From Prochlorococcus sp. AG-409-M05 (GTDB lineage Bacteria; Cyanobacteriota; Cyanobacteriia; PCC-6307; Cyanobiaceae): a DNA stretch of 64,000 nt. A model generated the notes under the pieces. That model worked only from the letters and a program-made list of their open reading frames with translations. It made no database searches and was not told where the DNA came from. The translations under genes were made by a program, and so were the position numbers. Of the stretch, positions 31,673 through 38,514 are shown one piece after another; the stretch's first letter is position 1; each line of letters opens with the position of its first letter. The stretch is taken from NCBI GenBank assembly GCA_003215435.1, contig QCKJ01000003.1:1-64000 (forward strand), given 5' to 3'.

Positions 31673-33685
31673 ATGCCATCGGCAGCTGAAATTGCATGGT
31701 TAATCCCTGTTCTCCCCCTCATTGGGGCTGTGATAACTGGGCTTGGATTAATTACTTTCAACAAAACCATCAATCGACTAAGAAAACCTGTTGCGGTTCT
31801 TCTTGTGACTTGTCTAGGAAGTGCTGCAGTCATTAGCTATGCAGTGCTCTTTGAACAAATAAATGGCTCACCCCCACTTGAGCATCTTTTTGTTTGGGCA
31901 AGTGCGGGGAATTTCATTCTCCCAATGGGTTATGTCATAGACCCATTAGCGGCCTTAATGCTCGCCTTGGTAACAACCATCGCACTACTAGTCATGATCT
32001 ACTCGCATGGCTATATGGCACATGACAAAGGGTATGTACGTTTTTTTACATATCTCGCCCTCTTCAGTAGCTCAATGTTGGGACTAATAGTTAGTCCAAA
32101 TCTTCTAGAGGTATATGTTTTCTGGGAATTAGTTGGGATGTGTTCATATCTACTTGTAGGTTTTTGGTATGACCGAGAAGGTGCTGCCCATGCTGCTCAG
32201 AAGGCATTTGTTGTAAATAGAGTTGGGGATTTCGGACTACTTTTAGGGATTCTTGGACTTTTCTGGGCAACAGGTAGTTTTGATTTTCAAAATATTGCTC
32301 TTGGGCTTTCAGAAGCAATTTCTTCTGGTGACGTTCCAACTTGGGCAGCTTTAACTCTGTGCCTTTTAGTTTTTATGGGGCCGATGGCAAAGTCAGCTCA
32401 ATTCCCTCTTCACGTCTGGCTACCTGATGCTATGGAGGGACCAACCCCAATTTCTGCTCTTATTCATGCTGCAACCATGGTGGCAGCGGGTGTATTCCTT
32501 GTAGCAAGGCTAGAACCCATTTATACCCAATTCCCCTCTGTTGGCTTAGTAATAGCGGTTGTAGGAACCATTACATGCTTTTTAGGTGCCTCTATCGCCC
32601 TTAACCAAATGGATCTAAAAAAGGGATTGGCCTATAGCACTGTCTCGCAGCTTGGTTACATGATGCTAGCCATGGGATGTGGAGCGCCAGTTGCAGGGAT
32701 ATTCCATCTTGTAACTCATGCCTTCTTTAAAGCAATGCTCTTTCTCGGCTCAGGGTCAGTTATACATGCAATGGAAGAAGTTGTTGGACATGAACCAGTA
32801 CTTGCCCAGGACATGCGGCTAATGGGCGGTCTCAAAAAGAAAATGCCAATCACTGCAAATACTTTCCTAATTGGATGTATCGCAATTAGTGGTATTCCTC
32901 CTCTTGCAGGATTTTGGAGCAAAGATGAAATCCTTGGTCAAGCCTTTAATACATTCCCTTTGCTTTGGTTCATAGGGTTCTTAACAGCTGGGATGACTGC
33001 GTTTTATATGTTCAGACTCTATTTCTTAACCTTCGAAGGAACTTTTCGAGGGGAAAATAAGGAGCTCCAAAAACAATTACTTTCATCTGCGGGCAAAGTT
33101 GATGATGATCAAGAACATCACAACCCTGGAGAACTGCATGAATCACCTTGGCCAATGACAATGCCTCTGGTGACCCTTGCGATCCCATCAATAGTTGTTG
33201 GCCTCTTAGGGACTCCTTGGGATAGCAAGTTTGCTGCTCTTCTAAACCCTCAAGAAGCCATTGAAATGAGCCAATCATTCCAATGGGGCGAATTCCTGCC
33301 CCTTGCGCTCGCATCAGTCGCTATTTCTAGTAGTGGTATCGCCCTAGCAGTAATGGCATATTTCTTAAATCGGATAAAGCTCTCAGAGGTCTTTGCTAAT
33401 AGATATCCAGCAATCGATGAGTTCTTAAAACGAAAGTGGTATTTAGATGAAATCAATGAGAAAATTTTTGTTCAAGGAAGCCGAAAGCTTGCCAAAGAAG
33501 TCCTTGAAGTGGATGCAAAAGTTGTAGATGGAGTAGTTAATTTAACTGGGCTCCTCACCCTAGGAAGTGGAGAAGGTCTGAAATATTTCGAAACGGGTAG
33601 AGCACAGTTTTATGCACTTATCGTTTTTGCTGGAGTGATTGGGCTAGTAGCTCTTTTTGGCGTCCTAGGCACACCGCCTATCTAA
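31673..33685 (+). CDS. ndhF: NDH-1 subunit F (NAD(P)H-quinone oxidoreductase chain 5)
   Basis: An integral membrane subunit of about 670 residues, antiporter-like, with the NuoL/NdhF core (LLVGFWYDREGAAHAAQKAF, HVWLPDAMEGPTPISALIHA) and a long C-terminal region. ATG 31673 gives the N-terminus MPSAAEIAWLIPVLPL, matching in length the Synechocystis NdhF1 start I recall. An upstream in-frame ATG at 31640 follows the Z-ISO stop by 1 bp and is possible. It pairs with ndhD downstream to form the NdhF1/NdhD1 type of NDH-1. Confidence 0.94.
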   Translation: MPSAAEIAWLIPVLPLIGAVITGLGLITFNKTINRLRKPVAVLLVTCLGSAAVISYAVLFEQINGSPPLEHLFVWASAGNFILPMGYVIDPLAALMLALVTTIALLVMIYSHGYMAHDKGYVRFFTYLALFSSSMLGLIVSPNLLEVYVFWELVGMCSYLLVGFWYDREGAAHAAQKAFVVNRVGDFGLLLGILGLFWATGSFDFQNIALGLSEAISSGDVPTWAALTLCLLVFMGPMAKSAQFPLHVWLPDAMEGPTPISALIHAATMVAAGVFLVARLEPIYTQFPSVGLVIAVVGTITCFLGASIALNQMDLKKGLAYSTVSQLGYMMLAMGCGAPVAGIFHLVTHAFFKAMLFLGSGSVIHAMEEVVGHEPVLAQDMRLMGGLKKKMPITANTFLIGCIAISGIPPLAGFWSKDEILGQAFNTFPLLWFIGFLTAGMTAFYMFRLYFLTFEGTFRGENKELQKQLLSSAGKVDDDQEHHNPGELHESPWPMTMPLVTLAIPSIVVGLLGTPWDSKFAALLNPQEAIEMSQSFQWGEFLPLALASVAISSSGIALAVMAYFLNRIKLSEVFANRYPAIDEFLKRKWYLDEINEKIFVQGSRKLAKEVLEVDAKVVDGVVNLTGLLTLGSGEGLKYFETGRAQFYALIVFAGVIGLVALFGVLGTPPI

Positions 33686-33750
33686 GTTCTATTCCTAACT
33701 TTTTTCACACCACTTATAAATAAGGTGCTAGAAACAAAAAAATTTGTCCA

Positions 33751-33769
33751 TTCTCATAAGTAGTGAGAA
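33751..33769 (+). other. small hairpin before ndhD
   Basis: TTCTCA (33751-33756) and TGAGAA (33764-33769) are exact inverted copies around a 7-nt loop. The right arm overlaps GAGAAG, the likely ribosome binding site for the TTG start at 33779. Short arms make this a weak call. Confidence 0.3.
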
Positions 33770-33778
33770 GCTCTGTAA

Positions 33779-35449
33779 TTGCTGGAGTTTGTCGGTAATG
33801 AAATTTTCACCCCTGTCTCTGGAATCATGACAGAACAGGTAACTGCCAATTTCCCATGGTTGAGTTTATCGATTCTCTTCCCAATTGTTAGCGCATTTCT
33901 TATCCCATTTATTCCGGATCAAGGAGAAGGCAAACAAGTGCGCTGGTTTGCCCTAGGAATTGCCCTAGTCACCTTTCTAATAACTGTTGGAGCCTATCTA
34001 AATGGATATGACCCAAGCAAAGAAGGACTGCAACTAGCTGAACGTGTGAACTGGCTTCCTGACATTGGCCTGACATGGGCAGTCGGTGCAGATGGCCTCT
34101 CTATGCCATTAATACTTTTAACAAGCTTTATCACTGCTTTGGCAGTCTTAGCAGCATGGCCAGTTTCTTTTAAACCAAAGCTATTTTTCTTTTTACTTCT
34201 GGCGATGGATGGGGGGCAAATAGCTGTATTCGCTGTTCAGGACATGCTGCTTTTCTTTTTGGCATGGGAACTTGAACTTCTACCTGTATATCTATTACTG
34301 GCAATCTGGGGTGGGAAAAAGCGTCAATATGCAGCTACTAAGTTCATTATCTATACAGCAGGAAGTTCATTATTCATTTTACTAGCTGCACTTGCAATGG
34401 GCTTCTTTGGAGGTGGTTCTCCAAACTTTGAATTTACCCATCTTGCTCAACTAAATTTTGGAACCGGTTTTCAACTTTTTGCATATGCAGGACTACTAAT
34501 TGCCTTCGGCGTGAAATTACCAATAGTGCCTTTGCATACTTGGTTGCCCGACGCACATGGTGAAGCGACGGCACCAGTTCATATGCTTTTGGCAGGAATT
34601 CTTCTGAAAATGGGGGGTTACGCATTACTCAGGTTTAACGCACAACTTTTACCAGAGGCACATGCTCAATTTGCACCTCTACTAATAATTCTTGGTGTCG
34701 TAAATATTATTTATGCAGCTCTTACATCATTTGCACAACGAAACTTAAAAAGGAAGATTGCCTACAGCTCAATAAGTCATATGGGCTTTGTTTTAATAGG
34801 TATTGGTAGCTTTAGTTCTCTTGGTACAAGTGGCGCAATGCTCCAGATGGTTAGTCATGGATTGATTGGAGCAAGTCTCTTCTTTTTAGTTGGTGCAACC
34901 TATGATCGAACTCACACCTTGCAACTCGATGAGATGGGAGGTGTCGGTCAAAAAATGAGAATTATGTTTGCGTTGTGGACAGTCTGCTCACTTGCCTCCT
35001 TAGCACTCCCAGGAATGAGTGGATTCGTATCCGAATTAATGGTTTTTGCAGGATTTGTAACTGATGAAGCTTTCACATTAACCTTCAGAATAGTTATTGC
35101 AGGATTAGCAGCAATAGGAGTAATCCTCACTCCTATCTACTTACTTTCTATGCTTAGAGAAATTTTCTTTGGTAAAGAAAATGTGGAGCTTGTTTCTCAA
35201 ACAAAGCTGATAGACGCGGAACCCCGGGAGATTTATATTATTGGCTGTCTGCTGGTGCCAATAATAGGTATTGGTCTATATCCTCGTCTAATAACAGATA
35301 GTTATATCGCTTCAATCGAAGCACTAGTAAATCGTGACTTATTGGCTATGGAGAGAGTTGGTCACCCTTCTTCGCCAGTAATAAGCAAAACAAAATTAAT
35401 TCCTGCAGTAATCAAGGCACCGGCAATTTCAACAAGCCTTACTACGTAG
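33779..35449 (+). CDS. ndhD: NDH-1 subunit D (NAD(P)H-quinone oxidoreductase chain 4)
   Basis: A 556-residue antiporter-like membrane subunit. It has the NuoM/NdhD pattern: [37 protein letters not shown] and [12 protein letters not shown]. The start TTG 33779 has GAGAAG 7 bases upstream and gives an MLEF start as I recall for picocyanobacterial NdhD1; ATG 33827 is an in-frame alternative without a clear binding site. It follows ndhF by 93 bp and is followed by a strong hairpin. Confidence 0.94.
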
Positions 35450-35463
35450 TAAGTCGAATTACT

Positions 35464-35505
35464 GGCATCCTTTTAGCAAAATCGATATTTTGCTAAAAGG
35501 ATGCC
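35464..35505 (+). terminator. perfect 19-bp hairpin between ndhD and scpA
   Basis: Arms 35464-35482 and 35487-35505 are exact reverse complements of 19 bases each (left arm starts GGCATCCTTTTAGC) around a CGAT tetraloop. It begins 15 bp after the ndhD stop and is the strongest hairpin I saw in the window. No T tract follows. The right arm contains AAAAGGA, the likely ribosome binding site of scpA, and also the TTG codon at 35490. Confidence 0.85.
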
Positions 35506-35513
35506 ACTCTCCC

Positions 35514-36404
35514 TTGCAAGATGACAGGCAAAATCTAAGAGCTGATTCGGGAGCACGGCTTGCTATTCGTCTTTTACAAGACGCAGCTCAAAGTGGTGAA
35601 TTAGACCCATGGGATGTGGATGTAATTGCTGTCATAGATGGGTTCCTGGATCAACTTCGGCAGAGAATTGAAGTTCCTAAAAAGATTGCTTTCCAAGCGA
35701 ATCATCAAGGAGGAAGCTTCGAACAAGATCTCGCCGAAAGCAGTGAGGCCTTCCTTGCAGCATCAGTTCTACTTGGGATAAAAGCAGAAATCTTGGAAGC
35801 AGATACTTTCCCTCAAGAGCCAATCCTTGATGATTTCCTTGAGCCAGAGCTTTCTGAACAAGGTTGGTTAGATCCTAGTTTCGCATTGCCAAGAAAACCA
35901 GAATTGCATCTCCTGCGTAGACCTGTAGCACCACCACCTTTAAGAAGGCCAGTCACTTTAGGAGAGCTGATAGAGCAACTCGAAACAATTGCAGAGCAAC
36001 TTGAATCTGACGAGCTCCTACAAAGACGACGTCAAAGACAAAAGCGATTAAGCAATAAAGAAGCCATTGCACAAGTCTCTGCTTTAGCTCACAGGGAAAA
36101 GCTTCCAGAAACAACAGCTGCTTTAGGAGTATTTATAAAAGACTGGGATCAGGCAATGCACTGGGTCGATTTCGAGCATTTGGTAGACCATTGGCAACAA
36201 GTCGCTAAATCTGATCTTGATACTGACCGTGTTGGAGTCTTCTGGGCTCTACTTTTTTTATGTTCCCAAGGGAAAATCGAACTAGAACAACAAGGGTCTC
36301 TCTTTGCACCTCTAAGGCTTAAACGCATACTTGCACCAGGGACAATTGCTCAAATTCCCTTACAAGTTCTTAACGTGCCAGATGCGACGCCGGCTGTCGC
36401 ATAG
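35514..36404 (+). CDS. scpA: segregation and condensation protein A
   Basis: A protein of about 296 residues of the ScpA kleisin family, which links SMC heads in chromosome condensation. ARLAIRLLQDAAQSGELDPWDVDVIAVIDGF near the N-terminus and AESSEAFLAASVLLGIKAEIL are typical, and the C-terminal winged helix (SLFAPLRLKRI) is present. Two TTG starts are possible: 35490, inside the hairpin arm, and 35514, just beyond it with AAAAGGA at a suitable distance. I prefer 35514. Confidence 0.88.
   Translation: MQDDRQNLRADSGARLAIRLLQDAAQSGELDPWDVDVIAVIDGFLDQLRQRIEVPKKIAFQANHQGGSFEQDLAESSEAFLAASVLLGIKAEILEADTFPQEPILDDFLEPELSEQGWLDPSFALPRKPELHLLRRPVAPPPLRRPVTLGELIEQLETIAEQLESDELLQRRRQRQKRLSNKEAIAQVSALAHREKLPETTAALGVFIKDWDQAMHWVDFEHLVDHWQQVAKSDLDTDRVGVFWALLFLCSQGKIELEQQGSLFAPLRLKRILAPGTIAQIPLQVLNVPDATPAVA
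36382..36402 (+). terminator. hairpin at the end of scpA
   Basis: ATGCGAC (36382-36388) and GTCGCAT (36396-36402) are exact inverted copies around a GC-rich 7-nt loop overlapping the scpA stop, and TTTT follows at 36408-36411. A second small hairpin (CGGC ATA GCCG) lies just after. Possible Rho-independent terminator. Confidence 0.4.
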
Positions 36405-36461
36405 AGGCTTTTCGGCATAGCCGTCTATGTTGTCTGTCAAGAAAAGGACTAAAGGACGCCT

Positions 36462-37640
36462 ATGAAGGCGATGATCCTGGCCGCAGGGAAAGGAACACGA
36501 GTTCAGCCGATCACACATGTGATCCCTAAACCGATGATTCCAATTCTCCAGAAGCCCGTAATGGAGTTCCTACTTGAACTCCTCAAAGAACATGGCTTCA
36601 AAGAAGTTATGGTCAATGTCTCCCATTTAGCTGAAGAGATTGAGAACTACTTTCGTGATGGGCAAAGATTCGGTGTTGAAATCGCATATAGCTTCGAAGG
36701 AAGAATTGAAGATGGAGAATTAATTGGAGATGCTCTTGGTTCTGCAGGTGGCTTAAAAAAAATTCAAGATTTTCAAAAGTTCTTCGACGATACATTTGTT
36801 GTGTTATGTGGAGATGCACTAATCGACTTGAACCTTTCTGAAGCAGTGAGGCGACATCGAGAGAAAGGAGCCTTAGCAAGTCTAGTTACTAAAAGAGTCC
36901 CGAAAGATCAAGTCAGTAGTTATGGAGTTGTAGTTACAGATGAAGAAGACAGGGTAAAAGCATTCCAAGAAAAACCTTCTGTTGACAAAGCACTTAGCGA
37001 CACAATTAACACTGGTATCTACTTATTTGAACCGGAAATCTTTGATCACATACCTTCAAACGAACCTTTTGATATTGGTTCCGATCTTTTCCCACGATTA
37101 GTAGACATTGGAGCACCATTCTTTTCACTTCCAATGGACTTTGAATGGGTAGACATAGGCAAAGTTCCTGATTACTGGCAAGCAATCAGAAGTGTACTTC
37201 AGGGGGAGGTTCGGCAAATTGGAATCCCTGGGAAGCAGATCAGACCAGGAATCTTTACAGGTTTAAATGTTGCTGCAAATTGGGATAAAATAAACGTCAA
37301 AGGTCCTATTTACGTTGGAGGAATGACTCGAATAGAAGATGGAGCCACAATTATTGGGCCCTCAATGATTGGCCCTAGTTGCTGTATATGCGAAGGAGCA
37401 ACAATAGACAATTCAATCATCTTTGATTATTCAAGAATTGGTCCAGGCGTCCAGTTAGTTGAAAAACTTGTCTTTGGAAGATACTGCGTTGGGAAAAATG
37501 GAAATCATTTTGACCTGCAGGAGGCAGCTTTAGATTGGCTCATCACTGATGCAAGACGGCAGGACCTTGTTGAGCCTTCTCCTCAACAAAAAGCCATGGC
37601 TGAATTATTAGGAAGTGATATCACTTCTGCTGCAAATTGA
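36462..37640 (+). CDS. sugar nucleotidyltransferase (mannose-1-phosphate guanylyltransferase-like)
   Basis: A 392-residue protein. The N-terminal Rossmann nucleotidyltransferase domain starts MKAMILAAGKGTRVQPIT, with PKPMIPILQKPVMEF and VVLCGDALIDLNL. A left-handed beta-helix follows at about 270-345 (hexapeptide-like TIIGPSMIGPSC). The family includes GDP-mannose and glucose-1-phosphate nucleotidyltransferases; the substrate cannot be fixed from sequence. It could supply activated sugars for the GT cluster at the start of the window, though the distance makes this speculative. Its 3' end overlaps metF by 20 bp, convergently. Confidence 0.88.
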   Translation: MKAMILAAGKGTRVQPITHVIPKPMIPILQKPVMEFLLELLKEHGFKEVMVNVSHLAEEIENYFRDGQRFGVEIAYSFEGRIEDGELIGDALGSAGGLKKIQDFQKFFDDTFVVLCGDALIDLNLSEAVRRHREKGALASLVTKRVPKDQVSSYGVVVTDEEDRVKAFQEKPSVDKALSDTINTGIYLFEPEIFDHIPSNEPFDIGSDLFPRLVDIGAPFFSLPMDFEWVDIGKVPDYWQAIRSVLQGEVRQIGIPGKQIRPGIFTGLNVAANWDKINVKGPIYVGGMTRIEDGATIIGPSMIGPSCCICEGATIDNSIIFDYSRIGPGVQLVEKLVFGRYCVGKNGNHFDLQEAALDWLITDARRQDLVEPSPQQKAMAELLGSDITSAAN

Positions 37641-38514
37641 GTCCAGACAAGTCCAGAATCTTTGGAATTAGGTGTTCTGCTTTTACTGCCATCATATGCA
37701 CTCCTTGCGCAAAATCTAAATATTGTTTGACCTGCTCAGCAGCTATAGCTACCCCCTCCGCAATCGGCTGTGGTGATTGATCTAATCTTGAAATAATCTC
37801 GTCTGGAATACAGGCCCCAGGAACAACCCTATTAATAAACTCAGCATTCCGCGCGGATTTCAACAAAAAAACACCAGCCAATACTGGTAATTCCAAAGGG
37901 TCTGCGACTTCTTTGCAAAAACGCCTTAACACCAATGGATCCATAACCATTTGTGTCTGCAAAAACCTAGCGCCTGCATCACGTTTCCGCTCTAACCTCC
38001 TAGTCAATCCACTAAAACTTTTGCAATTTGGATCGGCTGCAGCACCTGGGAAAAAAGTTGTTCCGCCATCTGGCAAAAGACGAGAGACGGGATCCTGCGA
38101 TCGATTAAAAGAAGAGACCTGTTGCAAAAGTCTTACAGACTCGAATTCATTAACTGGTCTTGCATCTGGCTGGTCGCCAGCTCTAACAGGGTCACCAGTA
38201 ATACATAGCAAGTTTTTTATGCCTAACGCATGTGCTCCTAGCAAATCTGCTTGCAAAGCAATACGGTTACGATCCCTGCAAGCAACCTGCAAAACAGGCT
38301 CGATGCCACTTTCATGAAGCAAACGACATAAAGCCAAACTGCTCATTCTCATTACAGCTCTGCTTCCATCTGTAATGTTTATTGCATGCACGCGTCTTTT
38401 GAGAACCCTAGCTATATCAAGAGCCTTAGATGGATCACCACCTCTAGGAGGCATTACCTCCGCTGTAATTGTTGTGGTTCCAGCCTCTAATGAGCGTTGT
38501 AAATCTGATATCAA
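37621..38514 (-). CDS. metF: 5,10-methylenetetrahydrofolate reductase
   Basis: A 297-residue TIM-barrel flavoprotein. Motifs include AEVMPPRGGDPSKALD, AINITDGSRA, LLCITGDPVRAGDQP and GARFLQTQMV, which fit the MetF family. It makes 5-methyl-THF for methionine synthesis. It is divergent from pedR across 88 bp and overlaps the nucleotidyltransferase gene at its 3' end. Confidence 0.9.
   Translation of the reverse strand: MISDLQRSLEAGTTTITAEVMPPRGGDPSKALDIARVLKRRVHAINITDGSRAVMRMSSLALCRLLHESGIEPVLQVACRDRNRIALQADLLGAHALGIKNLLCITGDPVRAGDQPDARPVNEFESVRLLQQVSSFNRSQDPVSRLLPDGGTTFFPGAAADPNCKSFSGLTRRLERKRDAGARFLQTQMVMDPLVLRRFCKEVADPLELPVLAGVFLLKSARNAEFINRVVPGACIPDEIISRLDQSPQPIAEGVAIAAEQVKQYLDFAQGVHMMAVKAEHLIPKILDLSGLNLQQK

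Follow-up and report, generated by a model that had tools for sequence, protein, structure and literature searches.

A perfect hairpin, probably lineage-specific, over a conserved promoter-like element of scpA in Prochlorococcus sp. AG-409-M05

The ndhD-scpA region and its hairpin

The window (the whole stretch of DNA analysed, 64,000 nucleotides from Prochlorococcus sp. AG-409-M05) carries an ndhD-like gene followed by scpA on the same strand, and a perfect inverted repeat lies between them. The genes and the parts of the repeat are as follows.

33779 to 35449, plus strand: ndhD-like gene; Pfam Proton_antipo_M, E 1.8e-66 (proton-antiporter-type membrane domain)
35463 to 35482, plus strand: hairpin left arm (TGGCATCCTTTTAGCAAAAT), 20/20 complementary to 35487-35506
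35483 to 35486, plus strand: hairpin loop CGAT, between the perfectly paired arms
35487 to 35506, plus strand: hairpin right arm (ATTTTGCTAAAAGGATGCCA), pairing with 35463-35482
35514 to 36404, plus strand: scpA, start codon TTG 35514, 296 aa; Pfam SMC_ScpA, E 7.4e-17

An earlier note on this DNA, made from the sequence alone, had described a 19-bp perfect hairpin from 35464. The perfect repeat is present; its length is 20 bp, with 20/20 pairs complementary, and it begins at 35463. The same note placed the run AAAAGGA (35495-35501) and a TTG at 35490 inside the right arm and a second TTG, at 35514, beyond the stem, and the coordinates agree on these points. The 5' edge of the hairpin is 13 nt past the stop codon of the ndhD-like gene, and its 3' edge is 7 nt ahead of TTG 35514. 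The stem alone, folded as RNA, reaches -29.1 kcal/mol, which supports the view that read-through RNA from ndhD would carry a stable stem; the 121 nt around the hairpin gave a folding z of -5.7.

The 20-bp stem is the sole perfect hairpin of such size in the 64 kb window. No near copy was found elsewhere in the window, and no second copy in the genome (1,692,760 bases); a genome-wide repeat or mobile element was ruled out, since the hairpin is single-copy in both. A structured RNA family was also ruled out, as Rfam gave no match in 33000-38000 up to E 1.

The hairpin resembles an intrinsic (rho-independent) terminator in being a stable stem just past a stop codon; whereas it differs in having an AT-rich inner stem and no T-run on either strand. 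The search for intrinsic terminators in 35000-36000 found none (0), and a looser rule also detected no T-run beside the hairpin on either strand. An intrinsic terminator was ruled out by the missing U-tract, and the proposal that the hairpin terminates ndhD transcription was thus not borne out.

A conserved promoter-like element upstream of scpA

A search of 201 family genomes, 174 of which gave a match, supplied loci for comparison, as did one genome-contig search (10 loci) and 40 further stretches. Seventy-eight loci, the window's own included, were placed between ndhD and scpA, some of them being one record reached twice; L022 and L043 were left out, having no usable ndhD match. The ndhD-scpA gap ranges from 2 to 611 nt across the 78 loci (71 distinct). 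Some gaps near 500-600 nt (e.g. L024, L045, L058, L062-L066) may hold an extra small gene, which is absent here. The rows were aligned ungapped, and 17 of the 70 distinct rows, scoring below 12, were excluded from the counts of columns, pairing and distances; the element may be absent in some of these, and all 17 stay in the stem survey (78 loci, 71 distinct). The nearest relatives compared belong to other genera, and the genus holds this genome alone.

The ungapped alignment revealed a common element, CTGGCA followed after 16 nt by GATAACTTGC. Its layout in the relatives is CTGGCA, 18 nt, TAACTT, then, 7 nt later, a conserved A, and the start codon about 17 nt beyond that. The corresponding features of the window are listed below.

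35462 to 35467, plus strand: -35-like box CTGGCA; columns 1, 3 and 4 identical in 52/52 aligned relatives
35486 to 35491, plus strand: -10-like box TATTTT (TANNNT), with G at 35484; both in 52/52 aligned relatives
35498, plus strand: predicted scpA transcription start, an A 7 nt past the -10 box; A in 49/52 relatives

Scores of at least 13 of 16 were obtained for 43 of the 70 distinct rows, compared with 1 of 1560 shuffled regions. The consensus was spotted by eye and recorded ahead of the retrieval of 40 of the loci; 21 of the 39 distinct loci retrieved afterwards score at least 13 of 16, compared with 2 of 1950 shuffles. The -10 place reads TAACTT in 25 and TACCTT in 15 of the 52 aligned relatives. 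This box was first read as GATAAC and changed to TANNTT by the column counts, while the start-distance counts keep the GATAAC frame. Counting the window, 52 of 53 rows have an in-frame start codon 22-26 nt past the GATAAC/GATATT hexamer, and in 50 of the 53 it comes 22-24 nt past GATAAC; by the same frame, the leader is 24 nt long in the window and mostly 23 in the family. At locus L017 only 2 nt separate the ndhD stop from the scpA match, and the element, lying within the coding end of ndhD, scores 15 of 16.

A pattern scan of 11 genomes returned 13 places, namely scpA in 11/11 and one other place in each of two genomes; the reversed-pattern control in the same genomes returned 0. The 11/11 is not a frequency, because nearly all of the 11 genomes were picked for a known element fit, and the new result is how few other matches there are. 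A generic consensus promoter scan missed the scpA element, and therefore the limits of that scan are shown. Scanning this genome with CTGGCA-N15-18-GATAAC gave one unrelated place and missed the window copy, because the window carries GATATT.

Promoters of the sigma-70 type have a -10 box with the motif TANNNT. The scpA element is similar to them in having a TANNNT box whose distance from the gene is nearly constant, a G two positions upstream of that box, the -35-like CTGGCA 18 nt from TANNTT, and the purine 7 nt after the box. It departs from such promoters generally in its unusual conservation across genera and its near restriction to scpA; moreover, the predicted copy in the window is overlaid by a perfect inverted repeat. 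The element is best read, from its conservation, as the own promoter of scpA, and a promoter inside the hairpin, as the earlier note had suggested, is very likely in view of the conserved element in the relatives. No description of the element was seen among the papers found on scpA in cyanobacteria, as judged from titles and the opening parts of abstracts, and the portions consulted of a published account of transcription starts for these genera (PMC5069720) do not mention scpA.

Consequences for the scpA transcript and its start

The boxes overlap the hairpin, and therefore the left arm corresponds to the -35 box and spacer, and the loop and right arm to the -10 box and the beginning of the leader. 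The scpA mRNA predicted from 35498 reads AGGATGCCACTCTCCC-TTG and keeps no more than nine right-arm bases. This mRNA could not form the stem, because its predicted start falls inside the right arm. A transcription start beyond 35487 had been named in advance as evidence against a switch, and the predicted start at 35498 does appear to lie beyond that position.

The scpA initiation site was also claimed to be locked in the stem. TTG 35490 falls in the TTGC that follows GATAAC in the element and is not the conserved start, which is TTG 35514, beyond the stem. AAAAGGA, of which no more than the last four bases would be within an mRNA beginning at 35498, is not a conserved feature either: the leader has an AGGA-like run in only 9 of the 52 relatives. 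The stem thus leaves the true start unmasked, and the claim of a locked site is not supported. The stem could still hinder ribosomes on read-through RNA, because it ends 7 nt before TTG 35514.

Conservation and frequency of long perfect stems

Position-matched pairing in the 52 relatives averages 5.67 of 20, compared with 5.79 for shuffled arms. No other perfect stem in the 71 distinct gaps (the window's own among them) is longer than 12 bp, a length reached in L050. An ancestral conserved stem was ruled out, the pairing in relatives being at the shuffled level. Covariation, suggested as a check, and kept pairing, whose loss in close relatives had been named in advance as evidence against a switch, are absent in these 52 relatives, all from other genera; a real regulatory hairpin could equally be lineage-specific. 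With the conserved start unsequestered and the pairing at the shuffled level, the proposed translation switch finds no backing in the 52 relatives.

In three first-order Markov shuffles of 864 kb each, the longest stem is 13 bp. By comparison, this genome has 11 perfect stems of at least 17 bp (864 kb examined), the single-cell relatives have 2 (400 kb) and the closed relatives 13 (800 kb). The 20-bp stem is therefore neither chance nor special, because shuffles reach only 13 bp and the genomes of the family are rich in such stems.

Perfect hairpins of at least 12 bp deep in ORFs were counted as well: 14 in 736 kb of ORF in this genome, 6 (two overlapping) in 351 kb in single-cell relatives, and 4 in 662 kb in closed genomes. 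The excess in this genome over the closed ones has a one-sided p of 0.026 (own: L083-L102, L123-L142; closed: L103-L122, L163-L182), and may reflect a lineage mutation bias or an amplification artefact. Three hairpins of 17-21 bp are deep in genes of this genome (L086:17146-17190, L133:1931-1977 and L138:19104-19141); the genes bearing them are an AnmK kinase, a Methyltransf_4 methyltransferase and one unnamed gene. A homologue of the unnamed L138 gene, in L191 (G039:C9:2163-3239), has an in-frame TGA. In all 3 of the coding hairpins compared with homologues (out of the 14 deep ones), the protein sequence stays typical of its family.

Origin of the hairpin and alternative explanations

The two arms differ in how typical they are of the family. 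Columns 2-3 (GG) of the left arm are near-invariant (49 and 52 of the 52 relatives); the right-arm bases at columns 26, 27, 38, 42 and 43 are rare (T in 3, T in 4, G in 3, C in 4 and C in 4 of 52, respectively), and each is the complement of the left arm. With its rare bases complementing a near-invariant arm, the right arm appears to be derived and copied from the left. The preferred explanation, held with fair confidence, is a lineage-specific hairpin that probably arose by template switching during replication over the own promoter of scpA, the stem forming only in ndhD read-through RNA. The promoter DNA of this lineage would thereby have been turned into a perfect 20-bp inverted repeat. 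During DNA replication, the inner ATTTTGC may have paired with GCAAAAT in a fold-back and taken the left arm as template; the copy would have overwritten the beginning of the leader, with a length change of at most about a base. Transcription of scpA would start near 35498 within the right arm, and the normal mRNA would be without the stem. The stem would fold solely in RNA read through from ndhD, and if it acts there at all, it would probably do so as a 3'-end or insulating structure, lowering the translation of scpA from that RNA.

That perfect stems can arise by template switching has been described (PMC8794818). The hairpin is similar to template-switch or quasi-palindrome correction hairpins in having a perfect stem, a short loop and an arm that complements a conserved arm; whereas no close relative shows an imperfect precursor here. 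It stands against the template-switch explanation that one left-to-right copy leaves the kept TTGC and AG of the right arm unexplained, unless an imperfect repeat pre-existed or selection filtered the outcome.

The reading of the earlier note, in which the stem ends the ndhD RNA and hides the ribosome site of scpA, so that scpA is expressed from its own promoter or once the stem opens, is considered unlikely. A stable stem 13 nt past the ndhD stop and 7 nt before TTG 35514, together with the expected folding of read-through RNA, is consistent with it; however, the stem has no U-tract, the start codon and a short leader are outside it, relatives do without the pairing, and a gap varying from 2 to 611 nt is unlike that of a tightly coupled ndhD-scpA pair. 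It is also doubtful, and quite improbable, that the hairpin is one of the long perfect gene-end hairpins and, though lacking a U-tract, defines or stabilises the ndhF-ndhD RNA at its 3' end. Such a hairpin is not conserved behind ndhD in relatives. By gene calls that are simple ORF picks, 11 of the 19 perfect hairpins of at least 14 bp in this genome (864 kb) are near a gene 3' end and 7 of the 11 are without a T-run, in favour of this role; whereas in closed relatives only 7 of 25 perfect hairpins are near a 3' end, and 5 of those 7 have a T-run.

An artefact of amplification or assembly is very unlikely. The genome possibly comes from one cell amplified by MDA, a maker of inverted chimeras; AG- genome names are taken here to denote single cells, the nearest relatives are mostly single-cell genomes, and deep-ORF hairpins of at least 12 bp are commoner in this genome and in single-cell relatives than in closed genomes. 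However, the coding hairpins compared keep normal proteins (3/3), and the two promoter boxes and the spacing to the start are intact, with nothing seeming to be missing. The hairpin locus seems undeleted; whereas MDA chimeras, in the portions consulted of PMC1855051, are mostly inversions with deletions. The least probable possibility, a highly improbable one, is that the element is a dedicated scpA control site across marine picocyanobacteria and the inverted repeat here a new switch, with a cruciform or read-through blocking the promoter.

Implications

The hairpin is most likely a recent mutational by-product and not a conserved gene switch, because it overlies an apparently ordinary, conserved promoter and is missing in relatives. 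The finding is ordinary in kind. Were the inverted repeat a new switch after all, it would tie scpA, a chromosome-condensation gene, to supercoiling or to ndh transcription. By the preferred explanation, a lineage-specific template-switch hairpin, this locus shows that a conspicuous hairpin may be misleading: what is conserved would be the underlying promoter, and the stem a lineage-specific overlay. The scpA element, kept between genera even within the coding end of ndhD, is a clear target for promoter mapping.
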